Assembly: GCF_001548035.1 (NCBI RefSeq)
Contig: NZ_AP014723.1
Location: forward strand, 1,178,001-1,242,000
DNA: 64,000 nt
From: Sulfurospirillum sp. UCH001
GTDB taxonomy: Bacteria > Campylobacterota > Campylobacteria > Campylobacterales > Sulfurospirillaceae
Direction: 5' to 3'
Positions 6,900 to 18,739 of the stretch are shown here, in pieces. The stretch's first letter is position 1, and the number at the start of each line of letters is the position of its first letter. The position numbers and the translations under genes were made by a program. Under the pieces are notes generated by a model. It had not been told where the DNA came from and searched no databases. It worked only from the letters and a program-made list of their open reading frames with translations.

Positions 6900-9854
6900 A
6901 TGGACTTGCATAAAAAGTTGAGTGTGTTTCACTATTTTCATAGCATAGCTCTCATTTTACTCTTAACATTTGCAGCTACATTTGGTGCACTTAGCTTTTA
7001 CAATGCCAAAGCAAAATATGAAAAAGAATCTGTACAGCTTCAAGAGGCGTATCTAGAGTCTAAGAAAAAGATATTGATCACGGAAGTAGATCGTTTTGTT
7101 CAACAGATTGAAGAAAAACGCCGAGACTCCTACGCAAAGACTCAACAGCTTGTTAAATCACGTGTTTATGAAGCACATGATGTTGCAAGTAAACTCTATG
7201 AAAAATATAAAAAAACCCACACTGACGCTCAAATCAAATCGATAATTATTGAGACCTTACGCTTATTACGCTATGAAGACAACAAGGGATATTATTTTAT
7301 TACCGATCTAAATGGTATCGAAGTTCTTTTTTCTGACCGCCCAGAAATGGAAGGTAAAAATATGCTTGAGCTTGTTAACAGTGAAGGTCGATGTGTTGTT
7401 AAAGGTATGTTGGATATTGTGCATTCTATCAAAGAGGGGTACTATGACTATACATGGAGTAAACCTTTTGAAACTAAAGATACGTTCAAAAAAATAGCCT
7501 ATGTGAAAGTGTTTGAACCTTTGGGGTGGATGATAGGTACAGGATTTTACCTTGATGACATGGAATCAAAGCTCAAAGAAGACATTCTAAACGATGACAA
7601 ACATCTCATTCTCGATAAAGAGAGTGGAAATTACCTATTTATTGGAACGTATGAAGGTCTATCTCTTACTTATCCTGCTAAAAATAAAAATATGTACGCG
7701 ATGCAAGATAGCTATGGTAAATTAATTGTGCAAGAGCTCATTGAGAAGGCTAAGAGAGGTGGTGGCTTTGTTGAATATGTTATGCCTCCGCTAAAAGGAC
7801 AACGTCCCCTTTTAAAAATGAGTTATGTTCAGGCGATTGAGGATTGGCAGTGGTATATTGGTGCAGGTATTTATATTGATGATCTCAACCATGAGCTCCA
7901 AGAGCTTAAAAGAACGATTCAAGAAGAGTTAAAACGAACATTGTATTCGATAGCGTTTTGGATGTTCCTCTTTACCCTTTTTATTGGTGGGCTTTATTTG
8001 CTCATTAGCCGTAAAATTCGTAAAGATTTTGAGATTTTCATTGAGTTTTTTGATTCTTTGGTTACAAAAGATCAGATGATTGATATTTCAAAAGTAAAGT
8101 TTAAAGAGTTTGAAGAGCTTGCAAATCATGCAAACGCAATGCTTAAAGCAAAAATTTTTAGCAATAAACATTTAGAACAGTACAAAAAAATTGTTTCTAG
8201 TTCAGATGATTTCTTAGCTCTGATTGATCGAAATTATACATATTTAGCGATTAGTGAGGCGTATCAGAAATTTTTCAATAAAGAAAAAGAAGAGATATTG
8301 GGACATACCATGCCTGAGCTGTATGGTGCGCAATATTTTGTTGAGAATCTAAAACATTTAAGTGATCGCGTTCTTGCAGGCGAAACATTTGAGCATGAAT
8401 TTTGGTCGTATTCTGCTCTTGGAAAGCGTTTTTTACACACGAAGTATTTTCCGTACTATGAAAAGGAAGATGACCCTTTGCCTATGGCGTATGTGGTTTC
8501 TGCCCGCGACAATACTGAAAAAAAAGCTAATGAAGACCGTTTAATTGCTTCTGAAAAAGAGTTAGAGTACCTAGCGCATAATGATGCTCTCACAGGACTT
8601 CCAAATCGTCTTTTACTGACAGATCGTATCTCTCATGCCATTGAGAACAGTAAACGTCAAGGCGGCATGATTGCGGTTTGTTTTATTGATTTGGACAACT
8701 TTAAAAAGGTCAATGACAGTTACGGGCACTCGTATGGTGATGAGATATTGAAACAATTTGCACTTCGTGTGCAAAGTAAAATTCGACATTGCGATACGCT
8801 CTCTCGTATTGGCGGTGATGAGTTTATTTTGTTAGTTGAAAATATCAAAGAAAAACATGAAATTGAAATTATTCTTGCAAAAATTCAAACTATTTTTGAA
8901 GAACCATTTATCAATAAAGCTCAGAAATTTTTCCTATCCGCCAGCATTGGAGTAAGTGTGTATCCAGATCATGGTACGGATGGTGAGATGCTCATTAAAA
9001 ATGCAGATACCGCAATGTATAAAGCCAAAGAAGCAGGGAAAAATACGTATGCATTTTATACACTCGATATGACGGTGGCTTCTTATGAACGTGTCGGTAT
9101 GGAAAATGCCCTTAGAGAGGCAATCAAAGAGAAACAATTTGTAGTTTATTATCAGCCACAGATAGATCTTAGGACACGTAAGTTGATTGGACTTGAAGCC
9201 CTTTTACGATGGAATCACCCTTTAGAAGGTATATTGCCACCAGGCAGATTTATCGCTTTTACAGAAGAGACCCATTTGATTGTTGAAATTGGAGCATGGA
9301 TACTGAAACAAACGTGTATCGATCTTGTAGGATTACGTAAAGAAGGGTTGTTTGAGGGTACCGTTTCGATCAATATTTCAGGTGTACAAATTGAATATAG
9401 TGATTTTCTCACTACTTTAAAAGAGACGATTGCTGAGACAAAAGTTGATCCATCGATGCTGGAAATGGAAGTAACAGAGTCATTTATTATGCATGATCCT
9501 GAAAGGTGGATTGCACTTTTAAAAGAGATGCAAAATTTAGGGATGAATATTGCCATTGATGATTTTGGAACAGGGTACTCTTCTTTGAGTTATTTACGTA
9601 AATTGCCTATTAATAAACTCAAAATAGATATGTCTTTTGTCAAAGATATTCCTAAACTTGAAGACGCATGTGCTATTGTTAACTCTATCATTACGTTAGC
9701 TCAAACGATGAAAATTACCACTTTAGCAGAAGGTATTGAACACCAAGAACAAGAGACATATTTGTTTGAGAATGGGTGTGAGCAAGGGCAAGGATATCTC
9801 TATGCTAAACCGATGAGTCTTAGAGACCTCAGAATTTGGATTAAAAAACAGTAA
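6900..9854 (+). CDS. Cache-PAS-GGDEF-EAL sensor protein for cyclic di-GMP
   Basis: 984 residues. Order: membrane helix (about 15-33); periplasmic double Cache-like sensor (about 40-340, with GYYFITDLNGIEVLFSDRP and WMIGTGFYLDDME, the pattern repeating as WYIGAGIYIDDL); second helix (about 350-372); PAS (about 430-545); GGDEF domain from about 555 with intact RIGGDEF near 636-642; EAL domain from about 730 with LEALLRW near 763 and DDFGTGYSSLSYL. Both catalytic motifs are intact, so it could make and break cyclic di-GMP, with one activity dominating under ligand control. Cache domains often bind small organic acids or amino acids. AAGGGAG precedes the ATG. The 13-bp gap suggests co-transcription with the antiporter. 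Confidence 0.93.
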   Translation: MDLHKKLSVFHYFHSIALILLLTFAATFGALSFYNAKAKYEKESVQLQEAYLESKKKILITEVDRFVQQIEEKRRDSYAKTQQLVKSRVYEAHDVASKLYEKYKKTHTDAQIKSIIIETLRLLRYEDNKGYYFITDLNGIEVLFSDRPEMEGKNMLELVNSEGRCVVKGMLDIVHSIKEGYYDYTWSKPFETKDTFKKIAYVKVFEPLGWMIGTGFYLDDMESKLKEDILNDDKHLILDKESGNYLFIGTYEGLSLTYPAKNKNMYAMQDSYGKLIVQELIEKAKRGGGFVEYVMPPLKGQRPLLKMSYVQAIEDWQWYIGAGIYIDDLNHELQELKRTIQEELKRTLYSIAFWMFLFTLFIGGLYLLISRKIRKDFEIFIEFFDSLVTKDQMIDISKVKFKEFEELANHANAMLKAKIFSNKHLEQYKKIVSSSDDFLALIDRNYTYLAISEAYQKFFNKEKEEILGHTMPELYGAQYFVENLKHLSDRVLAGETFEHEFWSYSALGKRFLHTKYFPYYEKEDDPLPMAYVVSARDNTEKKANEDRLIASEKELEYLAHNDALTGLPNRLLLTDRISHAIENSKRQGGMIAVCFIDLDNFKKVNDSYGHSYGDEILKQFALRVQSKIRHCDTLSRIGGDEFILLVENIKEKHEIEIILAKIQTIFEEPFINKAQKFFLSASIGVSVYPDHGTDGEMLIKNADTAMYKAKEAGKNTYAFYTLDMTVASYERVGMENALREAIKEKQFVVYYQPQIDLRTRKLIGLEALLRWNHPLEGILPPGRFIAFTEETHLIVEIGAWILKQTCIDLVGLRKEGLFEGTVSINISGVQIEYSDFLTTLKETIAETKVDPSMLEMEVTESFIMHDPERWIALLKEMQNLGMNIAIDDFGTGYSSLSYLRKLPINKLKIDMSFVKDIPKLEDACAIVNSIITLAQTMKITTLAEGIEHQEQETYLFENGCEQGQGYLYAKPMSLRDLRIWIKKQ

Positions 9855-9960
9855 AATAATGTTATATTTCGCATACAAAAGTTAAAAGAGTTCCTAATTT
9901 TGAACTAATCGTTAATATGATAGGATAATTAGCAAAAAAATAGTTTTATGTGGGGTGTTG

Positions 9961-11838
9961 ATGCGGAAATGGCTTTTTGTCTCTTTGTCTTTACTTGGGT
10001 GTAGCATCAATGCCTTTGGTGATAGCTCTATTGAAGGGTTATTAAATACCATTGAGAAAAAAAGTGATCTTTCTGAAAAAACAAAGCTAGAAAACAGCGG
10101 TTTTTCAACAATCTATACGCGTAATGACCTCGATATGATGCAGGTCAAATACCTCAGTGATATCTATAAATACACTATGGATGGCTATCGCACAAGCCGA
10201 TATGGCTTGCCTGACCCCCTTACATACGGACCCGTTCCTTTTTCTTCCAGCATGATACGTGTTTTTATTGATGATCAAGAGATTACCACTGCAATGTACG
10301 GTAGCGGTATGGTTATTCTGGGTGACTTGGACTTAGGATTTGCAGATCATATTGAAGTGTATAATCTTTCTACTTCGTTTGTTTATTCGAGTGAACCGAC
10401 ATCAACACTGATTCGTATTTTTTCTAAAAAAGCTGACAGAGATGCTGGCGGAAGTGTGAAGGGCATTGTAACAAGTCGTGGAGGATCTACCCAAAATGTT
10501 CAGTATATTGGGAAAGAGAATGAAACAGATTATTTAGCGCGTATCTCTTCTTCATACGATAAACGTAAAGAGTATGAAACAAGTAAAGAGGATCTTGATC
10601 GAGATGTTAAACGGTACAACCTCTTTACGAGTATCAAAGACGACACACAAAGCGTTCTTATCAATGCCTCAAAAACCAATAAAGGTGGATGGGTCGGTCC
10701 TAGCGCAGATGCGAGTTTAGATACTTCCAAAATTGAATCAGAAGATTCCCATATAGGGTACTCTAAAACATTTGATGATCTTAAATTTTCACTTGCCTAC
10801 GATGGACTTAAAGATCATGCACGCTATAAAGACTCGCTGTTGTTCTATCAAAAAGGTGTTCCTATCAATAGCATTGAGAGTAAAGCCACAAGTTCAGCAC
10901 TCTCTGCAGAATTAAAATACAACACAACATTGGGAGATCATCATATTATCACGGGAGCAAAATACCGTTATAAAATGATCAAATTTGATTTTTTACAGAT
11001 GAATGGAGTTGATGTACCACAAGATGGGCATACTAGACAATCCATTGGTTCCCTTTTTGTTGAAGACAGCTACGCATTTGCCGATAACATTGTCGGTACT
11101 TTGGGTGCGCAAAGCAGTAATGTTGATAATAATGGTGGTTACGAGAATGAAGATGTCCAGATGTTGCGAGCTGGCATCACCTATACGAACGATCAGTGGA
11201 CATCAAAGAGTTTTGTATTTCATACAGAGAGTTATATAGAGCCCTATCTGATTGGTTCATTTTACATGAAATCAGTCTATCCAGAAAAGATGACACTTGA
11301 TTCAATAGCGCAAGAATTCAAATACGAAGACGGTCCGTCGCTTTATGAATTTTTTATAAGTTATGCTTGGATTCAAGATGCACCTTATGTCAATGCTAAT
11401 ATGCGAGTAGATACAGCAGATGCGACAACAACCCATTTAAGTTCATACCTTCAGTACACATACCAGTATGATGCCATCAATAAAATCACCTTGGCATATC
11501 GTTATAAAGAGATTGATCATGCTGGTTATCATCAAGAATTTAGAAATCATCAAGTCATACTTCGTAACCAAAATCGCTACCATAAATTCGACTTTTTTGA
11601 AGAGATGTTTGTAACACGAAGCGAATACTATGACAACGCGGGGTTTGATCTAACGCTTGGTGTACGCTATAACATTAGTGACAATCTTATCGTTTCACTT
11701 AAAGGACAAAACCTACTTAATAAAGCAGAAAAACAGACTCTATCACGTTTTGATTTTACAACATTTACGCCGATGGAGCCTTTAAAAATACCTATTCAAG
11801 AGCGAATCGTGATGTTAGGGGTTGAATGGCTTTTTTAA
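9961..11838 (+). CDS. TonB-dependent-receptor-like outer membrane protein of a sensory cluster
   Basis: 625 residues from ATG 9961, preferred over GTG 9955 because GGGG at 9952-9955 is then spaced properly. A signal peptide (about 1-20) is followed by a plug-like region (IYTRNDLDMMQVKYLSDIYKY, then MIRVFIDDQEIT and DHIEVYNL) and many alternating beta-strands. The C-terminus VMLGVEWLF has the terminal aromatic residue of outer membrane barrels. The SIEGLLNTIEKKSDLSEKTK stretch after the signal peptide resembles barrels that sit beside histidine kinases rather than iron uptake genes. The next gene overlaps it by 13 bp and encodes a YfiR-like periplasmic protein, followed by a kinase and response regulator. 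A sensory role is inferred; transport is an alternative. Confidence 0.75.
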   Translation: MRKWLFVSLSLLGCSINAFGDSSIEGLLNTIEKKSDLSEKTKLENSGFSTIYTRNDLDMMQVKYLSDIYKYTMDGYRTSRYGLPDPLTYGPVPFSSSMIRVFIDDQEITTAMYGSGMVILGDLDLGFADHIEVYNLSTSFVYSSEPTSTLIRIFSKKADRDAGGSVKGIVTSRGGSTQNVQYIGKENETDYLARISSSYDKRKEYETSKEDLDRDVKRYNLFTSIKDDTQSVLINASKTNKGGWVGPSADASLDTSKIESEDSHIGYSKTFDDLKFSLAYDGLKDHARYKDSLLFYQKGVPINSIESKATSSALSAELKYNTTLGDHHIITGAKYRYKMIKFDFLQMNGVDVPQDGHTRQSIGSLFVEDSYAFADNIVGTLGAQSSNVDNNGGYENEDVQMLRAGITYTNDQWTSKSFVFHTESYIEPYLIGSFYMKSVYPEKMTLDSIAQEFKYEDGPSLYEFFISYAWIQDAPYVNANMRVDTADATTTHLSSYLQYTYQYDAINKITLAYRYKEIDHAGYHQEFRNHQVILRNQNRYHKFDFFEEMFVTRSEYYDNAGFDLTLGVRYNISDNLIVSLKGQNLLNKAEKQTLSRFDFTTFTPMEPLKIPIQERIVMLGVEWLF

Positions 11839-12239
11839 AACCGCTTATCTTGCTGGTATTTTCATTCACGATTAGTTTTGCAGAAACGCCTGAACAAGAG
11901 CTTATTGTAAAAGTATTTAAACTCTTGTCTATTAACAATACACCTGTATCTGTTTATGAACACAACCCTTCTATATCGTTACGAGGAAGTACGTTTACAT
12001 ATGTCATTGAACAGTGTAGTCATGCTGATATGATTTATGGCTCACGTTTTGAGACATTACCACAAGCGTGTAAGACGTTACCACGTTTTACAACCGAATA
12101 TGAACTTTTTCAAAATGATGAACATGTCATTGGTGCCTTTTATTGGCGGAAAGGTCGTCCTCAGTTACGCTTTAGCAAAGAGCGATGTGAGAAATTTAAC
12201 ATTTTTCTTCCACCAGAGTTGGTACGCTATGTTCAATAA
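11826..12239 (+). CDS. YfiR-like (DUF4154-type) periplasmic protein
   Basis: 137 residues with a clear signal peptide (to about FAET). The region from CSHADMIYGSRF to LRFSKERCEKFNIFLPPELVRYV resembles the C-terminal half of YfiR/DUF4154 proteins: a first strand ending in IY.SR, a mid-segment on the level of LTVSD, an RP-LRF strand and a final helix with a small-residue then L-x-x-L pattern. YfiR in Pseudomonas is a periplasmic inhibitor of a membrane diguanylate cyclase. Here the partners are a TonB-receptor-like barrel before it (13-bp overlap) and a histidine kinase after it (11-bp overlap), so it may carry a signal across the periplasm. The similarity is weak and judged by eye. Confidence 0.55.
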   Translation: MAFLKPLILLVFSFTISFAETPEQELIVKVFKLLSINNTPVSVYEHNPSISLRGSTFTYVIEQCSHADMIYGSRFETLPQACKTLPRFTTEYELFQNDEHVIGAFYWRKGRPQLRFSKERCEKFNIFLPPELVRYVQ

Positions 12240-13707
12240 GATGACATTCTCACGTTTCCTTACTTTTGTTACGGTACTCCTTTTAGCAGCAACATTACTT
12301 TTTTATCTTTTCTTCTCACATACAAAAAATGAGATTGCGACAAGTTTTGAGAGAACAGGTGTTGAAGAAGTTGAGGAGATATCCCAAAATATATCACGTT
12401 ATATTTTAAGTTCTAATGACTCGATAAATCTCTATACAGCATTAAGAGAAAACCCCAAGTTAAGAGAAGGATTAGAGCGCTTTCTTACTACGTTTAAAAC
12501 ACAAAAAATTCAAAATATTTTTATCATAGATAAGCCAGATACAGACTCTATTTTGTTTCGAGTTCTTCTTGATGGTGGACAGGAAAAAAGTGACAAATTT
12601 CAGTTTGAAGAGCTTTTTGAGCCAGAAGATACTTCATGGGAAGATGTGATTCGTTTTCGAGAAGCAAAAGTGATTTATCAAAAAGATAGAGTCGATGCTC
12701 TTTGGGCAACGCTGTTATATCCTATCGTTCAAAAAGATGGTCGTGTCGCTATTTTAGCACTGGATTTTTCTAAAAAACATTATCAAAAAGTTATTTCATT
12801 TCTTGTGGGTTTAGAGAGGTTTCTCAAAGCCATGGTTCCTTTCTTACTTTTTATTTTCTTGGTGATGCTCATTGTAATCCGCATTGACAAAGAGAGGGAA
12901 AAGGAGAAAATTAAGGCTCAAAAAGCTCTTGAAGAACTCAACCTTACATTAGAAGAGCGTGTTGTTCAAGAAGTAGAAAAAAATAGGCAAAAAGATCAAC
13001 AACTCATTCAGCAATCCCGTCTTGCTTCAATGGGTGAGATGATCAGTATGATTGCGCATCAATGGAGACAGCCTCTAAGTGCTATTAGCTCAACTGTGCA
13101 AGGATTGCATTTAAAACTTACTTTGAAAAAATTTGATGAGACACTCTTTATTGAAAAACTGAACGATGTTAATCGTTACGCACAATACCTTAGCCAAACA
13201 ATCGATGATTTTAGACAATTTTTTAAACCAAGTAAGGCAAAAGATAAAGTAAGTTTAGAAGAGGTTATTGAGAAGGTTTTAGGAATTATTGGTGTCTCTT
13301 TAGAAAACAAAAAGATTAAGTTAATCATGGAGTATAACTCTAATGAATACATAATGACATATGCCAATGAACTGATGCAGGTTTTGCTGAATCTCATTAA
13401 AAATGCAGAAGATGTTCTTCTTGAGAATAAGATAGAAAATCCTTGGATTAAAATAGCAACGTATAAAAATGATGGTAGTGTGATTGTGTCAATCAGTGAT
13501 AATGGCGGAGGAATTTCAAGTGCTGTTATCGAGCGTATTTTTGAGCCCTATTTTAGTACAAAAAACAAAAAAGACGGTACAGGATTGGGGCTTTATATGA
13601 GCCATAAAATTATTGAAGAGCATTGTGGTGGAAATTTATGTGCATCAAATGGTTTAGATGGTGCTATTTTCACAGTTACTTTACCCCGCTCATCGCTTGT
13701 AAGTTAA
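12229..13707 (+). CDS. membrane sensor histidine kinase
   Basis: 492 residues from ATG 12229 (MFNKMTF); the open frame extends further upstream but that part is the other frame of the preceding gene. Membrane helices at about 8-30 and 195-218 flank a periplasmic sensor of about 165 residues; a coiled coil links to the H-box SMGEMISMIAHQWRQPLS (phospho-His near 280), the N-box LIKNAEDVL and G-boxes ISDNGGGISS and GTGLGLYMS. This is the typical Campylobacterota kinase type. The gene lies 11 bp before a response-regulator/EAL protein that is its probable partner. The YfiR-like protein upstream is a candidate for its periplasmic input. Confidence 0.92.
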   Translation: MFNKMTFSRFLTFVTVLLLAATLLFYLFFSHTKNEIATSFERTGVEEVEEISQNISRYILSSNDSINLYTALRENPKLREGLERFLTTFKTQKIQNIFIIDKPDTDSILFRVLLDGGQEKSDKFQFEELFEPEDTSWEDVIRFREAKVIYQKDRVDALWATLLYPIVQKDGRVAILALDFSKKHYQKVISFLVGLERFLKAMVPFLLFIFLVMLIVIRIDKEREKEKIKAQKALEELNLTLEERVVQEVEKNRQKDQQLIQQSRLASMGEMISMIAHQWRQPLSAISSTVQGLHLKLTLKKFDETLFIEKLNDVNRYAQYLSQTIDDFRQFFKPSKAKDKVSLEEVIEKVLGIIGVSLENKKIKLIMEYNSNEYIMTYANELMQVLLNLIKNAEDVLLENKIENPWIKIATYKNDGSVIVSISDNGGGISSAVIERIFEPYFSTKNKKDGTGLGLYMSHKIIEEHCGGNLCASNGLDGAIFTVTLPRSSLVS

Positions 13708-13717
13708 AGGACAATAA

Positions 13718-15718
13718 ATGGAATCAGTTTTCAAAAAATGTATTGTAGATGCCAGAAATTTAACACTTTTATACGTTGAAGATAACGTTGGGGCACGCGC
13801 AGGTTCCATGTTGATTTTTGAAGAGTTTTTTGGACGTGTTATCGAAGCAGTTGATGGTGAAGATGGTTTGGAAAAATTTAAAAATTATCATATTGATTTA
13901 GTTATCACCGATATTACAATGCCTCAAATGAATGGTTTAGAGATGGCAGCAGCGATTCGGAAGCTAAGTCCTCAAACGCCTGTTTTGATACTCTCAGCGT
14001 ACAACGAAGCTGAGTATTTTATAGAGAGTATTCGTCTAGGGGTTGAAGGGTATCTTCTGAAACCTATTGAAATAGGGCAATTTATGGATGTTTTAAGTCA
14101 AGTCATTGAAAAAATTCGCCTTAAAGCAGAACACGATAAACTCCAAACACTTTTAACCCAATACCTAGAAGTTACCGATAAAAGTGCCATCGTTTCTAAG
14201 ACTGACAAACATGGAGTCATTACCTACGTGAATGATGCTTTTTGTACTATTTCTGGTTTTAGCCGTGATGAAATCATTGGTCAAAAACACAGTATTGTAC
14301 GGCATAAAGATACACCACAAGAGCTTTTTCAAGATTTATGGAAAACAATAAGCAGTGGAAACTTGTGGCAGGGTATTATCAAAAATCGATGTAAAAATGG
14401 TAGCAGTTATTACATCAAAACAGCTATTAAACCTATTCTCAATAAAAAAGGCGAAGTGGTTGAGTATATCGCGCTTTACAATGATATCACGGAAGTAATG
14501 AACCCTAAAAAGCAACTTTTTGACTATATCCATAGTACCGAAGAAGCCGTAGTGGTACTTCTAAAGATAGAAGATTTTGCGACTGTTGAAGATTTTTATA
14601 GTAATGAATTAATTGAGCTTTTAGAGCGTAGATTAGGGGATAAACTTTTAGAAAATATCGCCAAAGCCTGTCCTTTTGAAAAAATTTATACGTTGGGATT
14701 TGGTGAGTATGCGTTAGCTATTGATAAAAATAAATGTCCTTTAATCGCTCTTAGCTTGGGTCAAAAGATTAAAGAGCTTCTCAAAGAGATTGAAGAAGAG
14801 ATCATTCATCTCAATCAAATCGAATACAGTGCTTCGTTAATAGCTAGTTTAGCATTTGGTGGGAAAGAACCGTATCAAAGTGCACATTTTGGTATTAAAA
14901 AAGCAGAGCGCAAAAAGATTAATTTTATTCTTGCCACAGATTTGATTTTAGAGATGCAAGCCCAAGCACAGGTCAATATGGGAATCATTGTTGCGGTTAA
15001 AAAAGCGTTAAATACGTCAGGCATTATCTCTTATTTTCAACCTATCATTGATAACAAAACGAAAAAAATAGCAAAATTTGAGTCTTTAGTCAGACTTGTT
15101 GATGAAAATCACAACCTCTGGTTTCCCGCAGATTTTCTAGATATTTCTAAAAAAGGGCGTTATTACACTCAAATTACGCAAAAAGTATTGGATAACTCAT
15201 TTCAGGCGTTGTATCAAACATCAGCCGACATTACGATCAATATTTCCGCTATTGATATTGAAGAGCAGGTCACACGTAACAAACTGATTAATCTTTTAGA
15301 TACCCATAAAGAACATGCCCATCGCATCACGTTTGAACTACTCGAAGATGCAAGCATTAAAGAGTTTGATGTGATTAAAACGTTTATTCAAGAAGTGAAA
15401 TCGCGTGGTGTTTCTATTGCTATTGATGATTTTGGAAGCGGCTACTCTAATTTTGAGCGACTCCTTGATTATGATCCAGATATTATCAAAATTGATGGCA
15501 GTTTGATTAAAAATATTGCTACGGATGATTATTCTATCTCTATTGTTAAAACGATAGTGAGTTTTGCCAATGAACATAATATCAAAACTATTGCTGAATT
15601 TGTTGAAAATGAGACAATTTTTAATATTCTTTATGCACTTGGTGTGCATTATTCGCAAGGGTATTACTTTGGTAAGCCACAGTTATTAGAAGAATACAAG
15701 GGAATTTCGGGCTTTTAA
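13718..15718 (+). CDS. response regulator with PAS, degenerate GGDEF and EAL domains
   Basis: 666 residues. Receiver domain about 14-135 (LYVEDN acidic pair, phospho-acceptor in VITDITMPQ, LLKPIE lysine); PAS about 150-265; a GGDEF-like region about 275-415 whose signature is reduced to YTLGFGEYALAI, so cyclase activity is unlikely; EAL domain about 425-660 with FESLVRL in place of EALLR, IDDFGSGYSNF and the terminal SQGYYFGKP. Several phosphodiesterase residues are kept, so cyclic di-GMP hydrolysis under control of the kinase encoded 11 bp upstream is plausible. The cluster ends here; the next feature is a TPP riboswitch. Confidence 0.92.
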   Translation: MESVFKKCIVDARNLTLLYVEDNVGARAGSMLIFEEFFGRVIEAVDGEDGLEKFKNYHIDLVITDITMPQMNGLEMAAAIRKLSPQTPVLILSAYNEAEYFIESIRLGVEGYLLKPIEIGQFMDVLSQVIEKIRLKAEHDKLQTLLTQYLEVTDKSAIVSKTDKHGVITYVNDAFCTISGFSRDEIIGQKHSIVRHKDTPQELFQDLWKTISSGNLWQGIIKNRCKNGSSYYIKTAIKPILNKKGEVVEYIALYNDITEVMNPKKQLFDYIHSTEEAVVVLLKIEDFATVEDFYSNELIELLERRLGDKLLENIAKACPFEKIYTLGFGEYALAIDKNKCPLIALSLGQKIKELLKEIEEEIIHLNQIEYSASLIASLAFGGKEPYQSAHFGIKKAERKKINFILATDLILEMQAQAQVNMGIIVAVKKALNTSGIISYFQPIIDNKTKKIAKFESLVRLVDENHNLWFPADFLDISKKGRYYTQITQKVLDNSFQALYQTSADITINISAIDIEEQVTRNKLINLLDTHKEHAHRITFELLEDASIKEFDVIKTFIQEVKSRGVSIAIDDFGSGYSNFERLLDYDPDIIKIDGSLIKNIATDDYSISIVKTIVSFANEHNIKTIAEFVENETIFNILYALGVHYSQGYYFGKPQLLEEYKGISGF

Positions 15719-15945: not shown

Positions 15946-16749
15946 ATGAAACATTGTTTAACGATTGCAGGCTCTGACAGCTGCGGAGGTGCAGGTATTC
16001 AAGCCGATCTAAAAGCTTTTAGTGCCAATAGCACCTATGGCATGAGTGTTATTACTGCCATTACCGCGCAAAATACTCAAGGTGTCTTTGATGTCCAAGA
16101 CATTACCCCATCCGTTATAGAACATCAAATTGAAGCGATTTTTGATGACATTCGTGTAGATGCCGTAAAAATTGGTATGGTTTCTCGTCCTGAAACCATC
16201 GAAATTATCGCACAGACACTTAAAAAATACTCCTTGCCGCCTTTAGTGATTGATCCTGTGATGATCTCGAAAAGCGGATATGACCTTTTGCAACCCGAAG
16301 CCAAAAGAGCACTTATTGACATTCTTTTACCGATGGCGACACTTATTACCCCCAATCTTCCAGAAGCAGAAGTGATCGTGGGTTATAAAATCGATACGAT
16401 TGAGCTTATGAAAAAAGCAGCGCTTGATTTGCATAAACTTGGTTGTAAATACGTTCTTGTTAAAGGAGGGCATTTGGAAAATGATGCCACCGATGTTCTT
16501 TATGATGGTGAGACGTTTCATCTGTTACATTCAGCTCGTCTAAAAACCATCAATACTCATGGAACAGGCTGTACCCTTTCTTCTGCCATCGCAGCAAACC
16601 TTGCAAAAGGACTACCAGTAAAAGAAGCCGTTGAAGCAGCAAAAGCGTACATTACAGAAGCGATTACGCATGGCTTTAAATTAGGACATGGCGTTGGTCC
16701 CGTGCACCATTTTTACGCACTTTATACAAAAGCAGGAATTGAGTCATGA
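15946..16749 (+). CDS. thiD: hydroxymethylpyrimidine (phosphate) kinase
   Basis: 267 residues. Phosphorylates HMP and HMP-phosphate to HMP pyrophosphate for thiamine synthesis. The N-terminus TIAGSDSCGGAGIQADLK is the ribokinase-fold substrate site of ThiD; VIDPVMISKSG and the C-terminal THGTGCTLSSAIAA anion hole are intact. GAGG lies 8 nt before the ATG and is the presumed target of the TPP riboswitch. The stop overlaps the start of the transporter gene (ATGA). First gene of a salvage operon. Confidence 0.96.
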   Translation: MKHCLTIAGSDSCGGAGIQADLKAFSANSTYGMSVITAITAQNTQGVFDVQDITPSVIEHQIEAIFDDIRVDAVKIGMVSRPETIEIIAQTLKKYSLPPLVIDPVMISKSGYDLLQPEAKRALIDILLPMATLITPNLPEAEVIVGYKIDTIELMKKAALDLHKLGCKYVLVKGGHLENDATDVLYDGETFHLLHSARLKTINTHGTGCTLSSAIAANLAKGLPVKEAVEAAKAYITEAITHGFKLGHGVGPVHHFYALYTKAGIES

Positions 16750-17957
16750 TGGAAGAAAAAACAACTTTAAGTGGTTTTGGGCTCTTTGCACTTTGGTTTG
16801 GTGCTGCTGTTTCAATGGCGGAGATTTTTACGGGTGGACTTTTAGCGCCATTAGGGTTTGAGCAAGGATTAAAAGCTATTCTGTTAGGGCATCTGATTGG
16901 TGGATTGATTTTAATCTTAGGTGGTTATATTGGAGCTCAAAGTAAACTTCCAGCCATTATGTCCACACGCATCTCTTTTGGTCATTATGGCTCCTACCTT
17001 TTCTCACTTCTCAATGTTTTTCAACTCATTGGTTGGACGGCTGTGATGATTATTTCTGGTGGACGTGCTGCTAATGAACTTGGAGTTGCACTTTTTGGAT
17101 TTGACAGTATCAATACATGGGCAATTGCTATTGGGATTTTTATAGGTCTGTGGATTTGGCTTGGAAAAGTAGGGTTCCAAAAACTCAATGTTGTAGCTGT
17201 TGTTCTTCTTTTTGTTCTCACACTAATTTTATGTGGAGTTGTTTTTAAAGAAGGCAATATTTTACTAGCTGCACCCACAGATGAAATGAGTTTTGGAGCT
17301 GCATTAGAGCTTAGCATCATTATGCCTCTATCATGGCTTCCTCTGATTTCTGATTATACACGTTTTGCTAAGAGTAGAAAATCTGGCCTTGTTGGTAGTT
17401 TTATGGGGTATTTTATCGGTAGTTCATTGATGTATGCGATTGGCTTAGCGATTGCATTGTATGCAAAAGACGCAAGTGTAGGCTCTATGATGATGACGCT
17501 CAATTTAGGATTTGCTGCGCTTGGAATTGTACTTCTTTCTACCATTACAACAACATTTCTTGATGCGTATTCAGCAGGGGTGACATTTACCAATATTTTC
17601 CCGCAAATGAGCGAGCGAAAAATTGCTTTTGCAATGGCTATTATTGGGCTTTTGATTGCTATTTTTACTCCTATTGAGCAGTATGAAACCTTTTTATATG
17701 CTATAGGTTCAGTTTTTGGACCGTTATTTGCCATTTTGCTAAGTGATTATTTTATCTTTAAAAAAGAGCAAATTGAGCCTTCTTTGTCGTTGCACATAGG
17801 AGCACTCATCGTTTGGGCGATTGGAGTAGGGCTCTATTATTGGTTTATGACGTTTGATTTACCACTCGGTTCAACGCTTCCTACGATGCTTGCAACAAGC
17901 ATGATATTTATTATTACGAAAAAGGTTATGGCAACATGGACATTCAAGATCAATTGA
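16746..17957 (+). CDS. cytX: HMP transporter CytX (NCS1 cytosine permease family)
   Basis: 403 residues with about 12 hydrophobic segments. LWFGAAVSMAEIFTGG and the inner SWLPLISDYTRFAKS are characteristic of the NCS1 purine/cytosine permease family. Position inside a TPP-controlled thiamine operon, between thiD and thiM, indicates uptake of the pyrimidine precursor HMP rather than cytosine. It overlaps thiD by 4 bp and thiM by 22 bp. Confidence 0.88.
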   Translation: MMEEKTTLSGFGLFALWFGAAVSMAEIFTGGLLAPLGFEQGLKAILLGHLIGGLILILGGYIGAQSKLPAIMSTRISFGHYGSYLFSLLNVFQLIGWTAVMIISGGRAANELGVALFGFDSINTWAIAIGIFIGLWIWLGKVGFQKLNVVAVVLLFVLTLILCGVVFKEGNILLAAPTDEMSFGAALELSIIMPLSWLPLISDYTRFAKSRKSGLVGSFMGYFIGSSLMYAIGLAIALYAKDASVGSMMMTLNLGFAALGIVLLSTITTTFLDAYSAGVTFTNIFPQMSERKIAFAMAIIGLLIAIFTPIEQYETFLYAIGSVFGPLFAILLSDYFIFKKEQIEPSLSLHIGALIVWAIGVGLYYWFMTFDLPLGSTLPTMLATSMIFIITKKVMATWTFKIN

Positions 17958-18739
17958 ACGAAGTTTTTGTAGCACTCCAAACAAAGCGAGCTTTGGTACA
18001 TCATATCACCAACTATGTGACGGTCAATGACTGTGCTAACGTCGTTTTAGCCATTGGTGCTTCTCCTATTATGGCAGATGAAATAGACGAAGTAGCAGAG
18101 ATGGTTGGCATTTGTGATGCACTTGTTTTAAATATTGGAACGGCAAATGAACGAACCCTTGCCTCTATGGTAGAAGCAGGTAAAGCGGCAAATGCTAAAG
18201 GGATTCCTGTAGTTCTTGATCCTGTAGGAGTAGGGGCAACATCTTTTCGAAAAAAGAGTGTTGCAGAACTCATGAATACAATCTCGTTTAGCATTATTCG
18301 TGGCAATATGGCTGAGATTAAAACCATTGCGGGGCTTGAATCTAAAAGCGCTGGAGTTGATTCGTTAGAAGAAGAGAGTGATGGTGCTATTATTGCTTCC
18401 CATTTAGCTAAAAAATTAGGATGCGTGATTGCAATAACCGGTAAAACTGATATTGTAGCTGATGCAAAAGAGTGTTATATTCTAGAAAATGGTGATGTTG
18501 CTTTAACAAATGTCACCGGTACTGGATGTATGACAACATCTTTGATCGGTAGTTTTTTAGGTGCTTCAAAAAAAGCACTTCCAAGCGCAATTGCAGGGAT
18601 TTTGACGATGTCTATCTCTGGTGAAATAGCAGATAAAAGTAAAGGTATGGGAACATTTCACACAGCTTTGATTGATAGAATTAGTGAAATGAATTACATG
18701 ACATTAATCGAGAAAGCTAAAATAAGTTTATATAAATAG
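17936..18739 (+). CDS. thiM: hydroxyethylthiazole kinase
   Basis: 267 residues. Phosphorylates the thiazole moiety of thiamine for salvage. Motifs: HHITNYVTVNDCANVVLAIGASPIMAD at the N-terminus (substrate site), VVLDPVGVGAT, IRGNMAEI, AITGKTDIV and NVTGTGCMTTSLIG (ATP/catalytic loop with Cys). The start overlaps the end of cytX by 22 bp, so translation is coupled. With thiD and a distant thiE (59.0 kb) this gives a complete salvage route from HMP and thiazole to thiamine phosphate. Confidence 0.96.
   Translation: MDIQDQLNEVFVALQTKRALVHHITNYVTVNDCANVVLAIGASPIMADEIDEVAEMVGICDALVLNIGTANERTLASMVEAGKAANAKGIPVVLDPVGVGATSFRKKSVAELMNTISFSIIRGNMAEIKTIAGLESKSAGVDSLEEESDGAIIASHLAKKLGCVIAITGKTDIVADAKECYILENGDVALTNVTGTGCMTTSLIGSFLGASKKALPSAIAGILTMSISGEIADKSKGMGTFHTALIDRISEMNYMTLIEKAKISLYK

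Follow-up and report, generated by a model that had tools for sequence, protein, structure and literature searches.

In Sulfurospirillum sp. UCH001, four adjoining genes within a 64-kb window (the whole stretch of DNA analysed here, part of a complete 2.6-Mb genome) appear to form one transenvelope relay, leading from an outer-membrane barrel at the cell surface, through a YfiR-like periplasmic protein and a membrane histidine kinase, to a response regulator that is a predicted cyclic-di-GMP enzyme. We put the probability of this reading at roughly two in three. An earlier note on the same DNA had proposed a single sensing chain from the surface to cyclic di-GMP, and comparative evidence (order, pairing and co-divergence of the parts) now supports it; the signalling steps are what we infer from that evidence.

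The four open reading frames (ORFs) are confirmed exactly and all lie on the plus strand, with the tight junctions described earlier: the barrel gene overlaps the YfiR-like gene by 13 base pairs (bp) (11826-11838), the YfiR-like gene overlaps the kinase gene by 11 bp, counted from a kinase start at ATG 12229 (12241 is a possible alternative start), and a gap of 10 bp separates kinase and regulator. A search with the YfiR-like protein finds homologues in 30 of 44 genomes of the family, including Sulfurospirillum arcachonense, and a profile finds them in at least 88 of 397 genomes and at least 25 of 68 genera of the phylum (lower bounds, with ten candidates scored per genome). A contig scan adds Sulfurimonas, Sulfurovum, Arcobacter and Nautiliaceae, as well as Aquificota (Persephonella, Aquificaceae). 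The comparison of gene order advised in the earlier note can thus be made over 171 distinct loci from Campylobacterota and Aquificota, identical sequences removed. A TonB-receptor-like barrel stands directly upstream of the YfiR-like gene in 163 of them (four of the remainder are at contig edges), and in 159 the next gene downstream encodes a homologous membrane sensor of the Cache type. The order barrel, YfiR-like protein, sensor recurs in most distinct loci, far beyond chance.

Pairing and divergence point the same way. The 44 family genomes hold 40 strong YfiR-like matches and 40 strong sensor matches, one-to-one, on the same contigs and tens of bases apart. Over 134 complete triads, the three parts (barrel, YfiR-like protein, sensor domain) have pairwise distances that are correlated with r 0.85-0.90, values that kinship inflates. 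Five genomes carry both a kinase-type and a GGDEF-type cassette, and here the parts follow cassette type rather than genome: cassettes of the same type share 54-97% identity across genomes (means 66-73%), counterparts within one genome 23-29% (means 25-28%). Judged from these distances, the three parts evolve as a unit, and the independent occurrence in relatives that would have told against a single chain was not found.

The barrel gene (9961..11838, plus strand) encodes 625 amino acids from ATG 9961, with an in-frame GTG at 9955. Its family profile matches BtuB (E 1.8e-7), CntO, FoxA and the colicin I receptor, and a Plug domain is found in 46 of 50 relatives (E up to 1). Because of these matches the barrel is assigned, at the level of the family, to the plugged TonB-dependent receptors, which bears out its first description as TonB-receptor-like, though the UCH001 protein alone scores 14.3 bits for Plug, under the cut-off of 23.9. 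All that lies between signal peptide and plug is a short conserved segment, approximately (S)IDxLL...SDLSxKTKxEsxG. The suggested check for a TonB box, by eye and with a simple pattern, found none recognisable in 50 aligned barrels; three pattern matches fall inside signal peptides. The UCH001 genome, by comparison, encodes three conventional TonB receptors, of which two have clear boxes (IQLDNISVTA, IDLGQISVVA). No STN domain is matched in the barrel, the plug coming right after the short N-terminus, and no FecR/FecI-type anti-sigma or sigma gene is present among the cassette neighbours. Since no TonB box is recognisable here whereas two conventional receptors have clear ones, and since an STN domain is missing, a receptor role is favoured over import, and the earlier idea of a receptor that is not an importer gains support.

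The YfiR-like gene (11826..12239, plus strand) encodes a small periplasmic protein of 137 amino acids with a signal peptide recognised by eye. Sequence searches of Pfam, NCBIfam and the PDB give it no direct name. None of 62 family members has a credible Pfam match, nor any to DUF4154 (PF13689), a family without a match anywhere in the whole UCH001 genome, so that the protein falls outside DUF4154 as Pfam defines it; its profile also found nothing in the single E. coli YfiR sequence. The identities of this protein and of the barrel are drawn from family profiles and predicted structure, not from Pfam matches of their own. An AlphaFold model built from the 62 sequences (mean predicted local distance difference test score, pLDDT, 92.3) is a single small lobe. 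Its best PDB matches in Foldseek are YfiR chains (E 0.008-0.08) and halves of substrate-binding proteins, a Rhodothermus protein among them. VIA-align, a re-examination of the Foldseek matches whose own lists do not exclude the families absent from those lists, aligns about 115 residues of the model with YfiR at Z 8.5-9.2, against 4.4 at most for unrelated folds. Compared profile to profile with the phylum's own DUF4154 proteins, the family keeps 125 columns in register (E 1.3e-4, a single comparison). The model thus shows the similarity to the YfiR fold that had been predicted, and homology with YfiR is likely. The invariant residues of the family (W107, K109, R111 and P112) all lie on a C-terminal hairpin which, in a hand alignment through E. 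coli YfiR, would sit next to the position of Phe151 of PAO1 YfiR, a residue that contacts YfiB (PMC4655355). In the same remote alignment of the hairpin, the positions equivalent to PAO1 Cys145-Cys152 hold no cysteines.

Barrel and periplasmic protein could also be read as an ordinary TonB-dependent importer and its binding protein, with the sensor reading the loaded form and cyclic-di-GMP control a by-product of import. The conserved plug and barrel would suit this, as would the TonB encoded in the genome and the occurrence of the YfiR fold in substrate-binding-protein halves (3lft, 3lkv and the Rhodothermus protein). The structures 3lft and 3lkv have also been given as relatives of YfiR itself (PMC4655355). 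The importer explanation is nonetheless unlikely: the TonB box that two of three conventional receptors display is not recognisable in the 50 barrels, the neighbours sampled include no recurrent gene for catabolism or for an inner-membrane transporter, and the YfiR-like protein is one small lobe, not a two-lobed binding protein.

The kinase gene (12229..13707, plus strand) encodes 492 amino acids and has the membrane histidine kinase architecture first ascribed to it: a transmembrane helix, a periplasmic sensor domain, a second transmembrane helix, HisKA (MIAHQWRQP) and HATPase_c. The sensor domain, modelled with pLDDT 88.9, is predicted to take a fold of the Cache/PDC type, with WalK and DctB as nearest matches (Z about 12-13), and is homologous to the sensor of the GGDEF proteins at related loci. 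Cache/PDC folds often bind small molecules. The genes might therefore be clustered by descent only: kinase and REC-PAS-EAL protein would then be a two-component pair of the usual sort, with a small ligand bound by the sensor itself, and barrel and YfiR-like protein would serve some other envelope function. One genus (G184), in which the barrel/YfiR-like pair has no adjacent sensor, would fit this. We consider it rather improbable in view of the one-to-one pairing of YfiR-like protein and sensor in the 44 genomes, the strong co-divergence of the three parts, the persistence of the cluster across two phyla amid unrelated surrounding genes, and a parallel arrangement built around canonical DUF4154.

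The output attached to the sensor varies. Of the 171 loci, 108 have GGDEF-EAL, 25 a lone GGDEF domain and 20 a histidine kinase; one further kinase locus, with a sensor domain under threshold, brings the kinase loci to 21. All 24 GGDEF-only proteins that were read have an intact GGEEF motif, as do most of the bifunctional ones. In the sensor tree, the kinase form occupies one side of a single branch (Shimodaira-Hasegawa-like approximate likelihood ratio test, SH-aLRT, 97), so the tree indicates one replacement in a single clade. A gene for a REC-GGDEF, REC-GGDEF-EAL or REC-PAS-EAL protein lies at most three genes up- or downstream in 15 of the 21 kinase loci; because of this, the output appears still to be cyclic di-GMP; most simply read, the messenger was retained when phosphotransfer replaced a direct enzyme.

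In UCH001 this partner is the 666-amino-acid regulator (13718..15718, plus strand), first described as a REC-PAS-GGDEF-EAL protein. REC, PAS and EAL are present as Pfam domains (Response_reg 84 bits, ..LVITDITMP..), and only the GGDEF part of that description does not stand: the position reads GFGEY and has no Pfam match. All eight residues checked at the EAL site are intact (ENEDDKEQ), as is the EAL site in 14 of 14 kinase-linked regulators. With an intact EAL site and a degenerate GGDEF region, the regulator is a predicted phosphodiesterase, not a cyclase. Kinase and regulator fit a two-component pair, the HisKA histidine and HATPase having a REC domain next door. Full-length relatives of the regulator adjoin cassettes in Nautiliaceae and Sulfurimonas crateris at 41-48% identity; other kinase-linked regulators share about 31-39% with it over parts. 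That the kinase version has lost cyclic-di-GMP control, its kinase mainly serving other regulators and the EAL protein answering other kinases, is the least probable alternative, since the loci without a nearby regulator, some of which adjoin another kinase with substrate-binding domains together with REC proteins (e.g. L076), have to be set against the 15 that have one, in several different arrangements, and against a REC-PAS-EAL partner that co-travels at 41-48% identity.

Several points weigh against the relay. In 6 of the 21 kinase loci no cyclic-di-GMP regulator is nearby (some of these are at contig ends). The absence of a TonB box was judged only by eye and simple pattern. The halves of ABC substrate-binding proteins 3lft and 3lkv tie with YfiR in VIA-align, and the HH probability of the DUF4154 match is only 54% in a single comparison. 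The sensor tree was built quickly, and many of its forks are weak. In G184 the pair has no adjacent sensor, and named Hydrogenimonas contigs resemble it.

The relay would work as follows. At the surface, the plugged barrel, derived from a TonB-dependent receptor, would sense an external cue as a receptor rather than an energised importer. On the periplasmic side, its conserved N-terminal and plug face may capture or release the YfiR-fold protein, by analogy with the sequestration of YfiR by YfiB. The YfiR-fold protein would bind the periplasmic Cache-type domain and so control the membrane sensor, as YfiR acts on the PAS domain of YfiN. In most relatives the sensor itself, by sequence, bears the cyclic-di-GMP enzyme (GGDEF or GGDEF-EAL). 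In the UCH001 clade the kinase would instead phosphorylate the neighbouring REC-PAS-EAL protein, as adjacency, co-travel and intact HisKA and REC domains suggest, and the EAL domain, with its catalytic residues intact, would degrade cyclic di-GMP. Front end and messenger would then be constant and the route between them changed, the active regulator of the UCH001 clade being predicted to lower the messenger. A wider proposal is advanced tentatively, its chances being somewhat short of even: a class of barrels derived from TonB receptors may have shed the TonB box and now serve solely as surface receptors in cyclic-di-GMP signalling. They would act through a YfiR-like family that had no name before and through a Cache sensor. 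The output of this sensor would be either a cyclase or a bifunctional enzyme, or else a kinase that drives a cyclic-di-GMP phosphodiesterase, the kinase having come in by a single ancestral swap.

Individual cassettes vary in make-up. Tandem duplication has produced two barrel/YfiR-like pairs in L111 and two barrels in succession in L086. In L082, L115, L118 and L190 (Hydrogenimonas-type and other Campylobacterales; two of L082, L115 and L118 are labelled only Campylobacterales), barrel and YfiR-like genes are followed by a HAD-like gene of 153-160 amino acids, with no adjacent sensor. L227 also seemed to be sensorless and was rejected as an artefact of the ORF filter; its sensor adjoins. Broken barrels occur in GGDEF-EAL cassettes of two close relatives, G016 and G022: in L063 (7197-11213) three opposite-strand ORFs, an apparent insertion, separate the halves of the gene, and in L064 (7860-9767) the reading frame is split, the YfiR-like and sensor genes still being intact in both. 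In L076 (7847-10738) and L081 (7847-10759), a kinase-type cassette is followed by a second histidine kinase of 963-970 amino acids, which in L076 carries NMT1/THI5-like and SBP_bac_3 substrate-binding domains.

The closest known system is YfiBNR (TpbB in P. aeruginosa; YfiR-DgcN-YfiB in E. coli), in which YfiR, a periplasmic repressor, is kept from the membrane cyclase YfiN by an outer-membrane lipoprotein that sequesters it; the signals that activate the system are described as an open question (PMC3375315). Distant YfiR-YfiN pairs without YfiB, possibly with GGDEF-EAL or kinase outputs, have been reported, and the main text of that paper does not mention TonB (PMC3375315). Both systems have an outer-membrane part, a YfiR-fold periplasmic protein, an inner-membrane sensor with a PAS/Cache-like periplasmic domain, a cyclic-di-GMP output and modular outputs. 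They differ in that the outer-membrane partner of the cassette is a plugged barrel of the TonB-receptor family rather than the OmpA/Pal-like lipoprotein YfiB (no OmpA-like gene is among the immediate cassette neighbours), its YfiR-like family has no Pfam DUF4154 match, and the UCH001 output is a kinase with a separate EAL response regulator. The cassette is a variant of the modular YfiR-YfiN system, new in make-up.

Canonical DUF4154 genes of Campylobacterota also have a TonB-receptor-like gene on one side and a GGDEF gene on the other (L273, L274, L280, L285 and others). The loci L274, L280 and L285 share the order barrel, YfiR-fold gene, membrane cyclic-di-GMP enzyme, but several barrels of the canonical loci retain, close to the N-terminus, a stretch of the VT.[AS]S type, and their sensor is not recognised by the UCH001-family profile. 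Such genes repeatedly adjoin TonB-receptor-like genes and GGDEF proteins or kinases (also L283, L284, L277, L279 and L287), and DUF4154 is fused to GGDEF in L288 and L289. With canonical DUF4154 genes likewise flanked, the theme is broader than the YfiR-like family of UCH001.

In FecA-FecR-FecI signalling, too, a TonB-receptor-family barrel starts an envelope-crossing signal; the cassette, however, lacks the N-terminal STN domain, FecR and a sigma factor, and its output is cyclic di-GMP, not transcription driven by an extracytoplasmic function sigma factor. WalK (with YycH/YycI) and DctB share the fold of the extracytoplasmic sensor domain at only about 10% identity, and the proposed regulator of the cassette's sensor is a soluble YfiR-fold protein. 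In a survey of signalling in Campylobacterota, the cyclic-di-GMP enzymes of the phylum are discussed, and a TonB receptor appears only with FecIR (PMC9239204). In the open-access literature we found nothing linking YfiR or DUF4154 to a TonB receptor, and no description of the barrel/YfiR-like/sensor triad or of its canonical DUF4154 counterpart.

The surroundings of the cassette are less constant. The gene upstream (6900-9854) encodes a dCache_2-PAS-GGDEF-EAL protein, a cyclic-di-GMP enzyme as the earlier note had it; it was rejected as part of the cassette, being directly upstream of the barrel in only two of seven close relatives. Directly downstream lies a thiamine-precursor salvage cluster, thiD-cytX-thiM (15946-18739 of the window), and thiD follows the cassette in several close relatives too; a thiamine-related signal is unsupported, distant cassettes having other neighbours. 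The neighbours sampled are mostly housekeeping genes unrelated to the cassette (phosphoribosyl pyrophosphate synthase, LepA, acetolactate synthase, NuoCD, a Na+/H+ exchanger and a di-haem peroxidase) and give no clue to a ligand. A promoter and terminator scan yielded no more sites than shuffled sequence and is therefore uninformative on operon borders.

To our knowledge, little is understood of how outside information passes the outer membrane and reaches cyclic di-GMP, and the surface-signalling barrels we know of act on sigma factors. If the relay holds, so widespread and stable a triad, its outputs being exchangeable, would be a direct path from the surface to this messenger that experiments could test. 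It would also account for some proteins of the TonB-receptor family that stand apart from transport genes. It would, moreover, provide a natural experiment, the same front end being coupled to enzymes of opposing activity.

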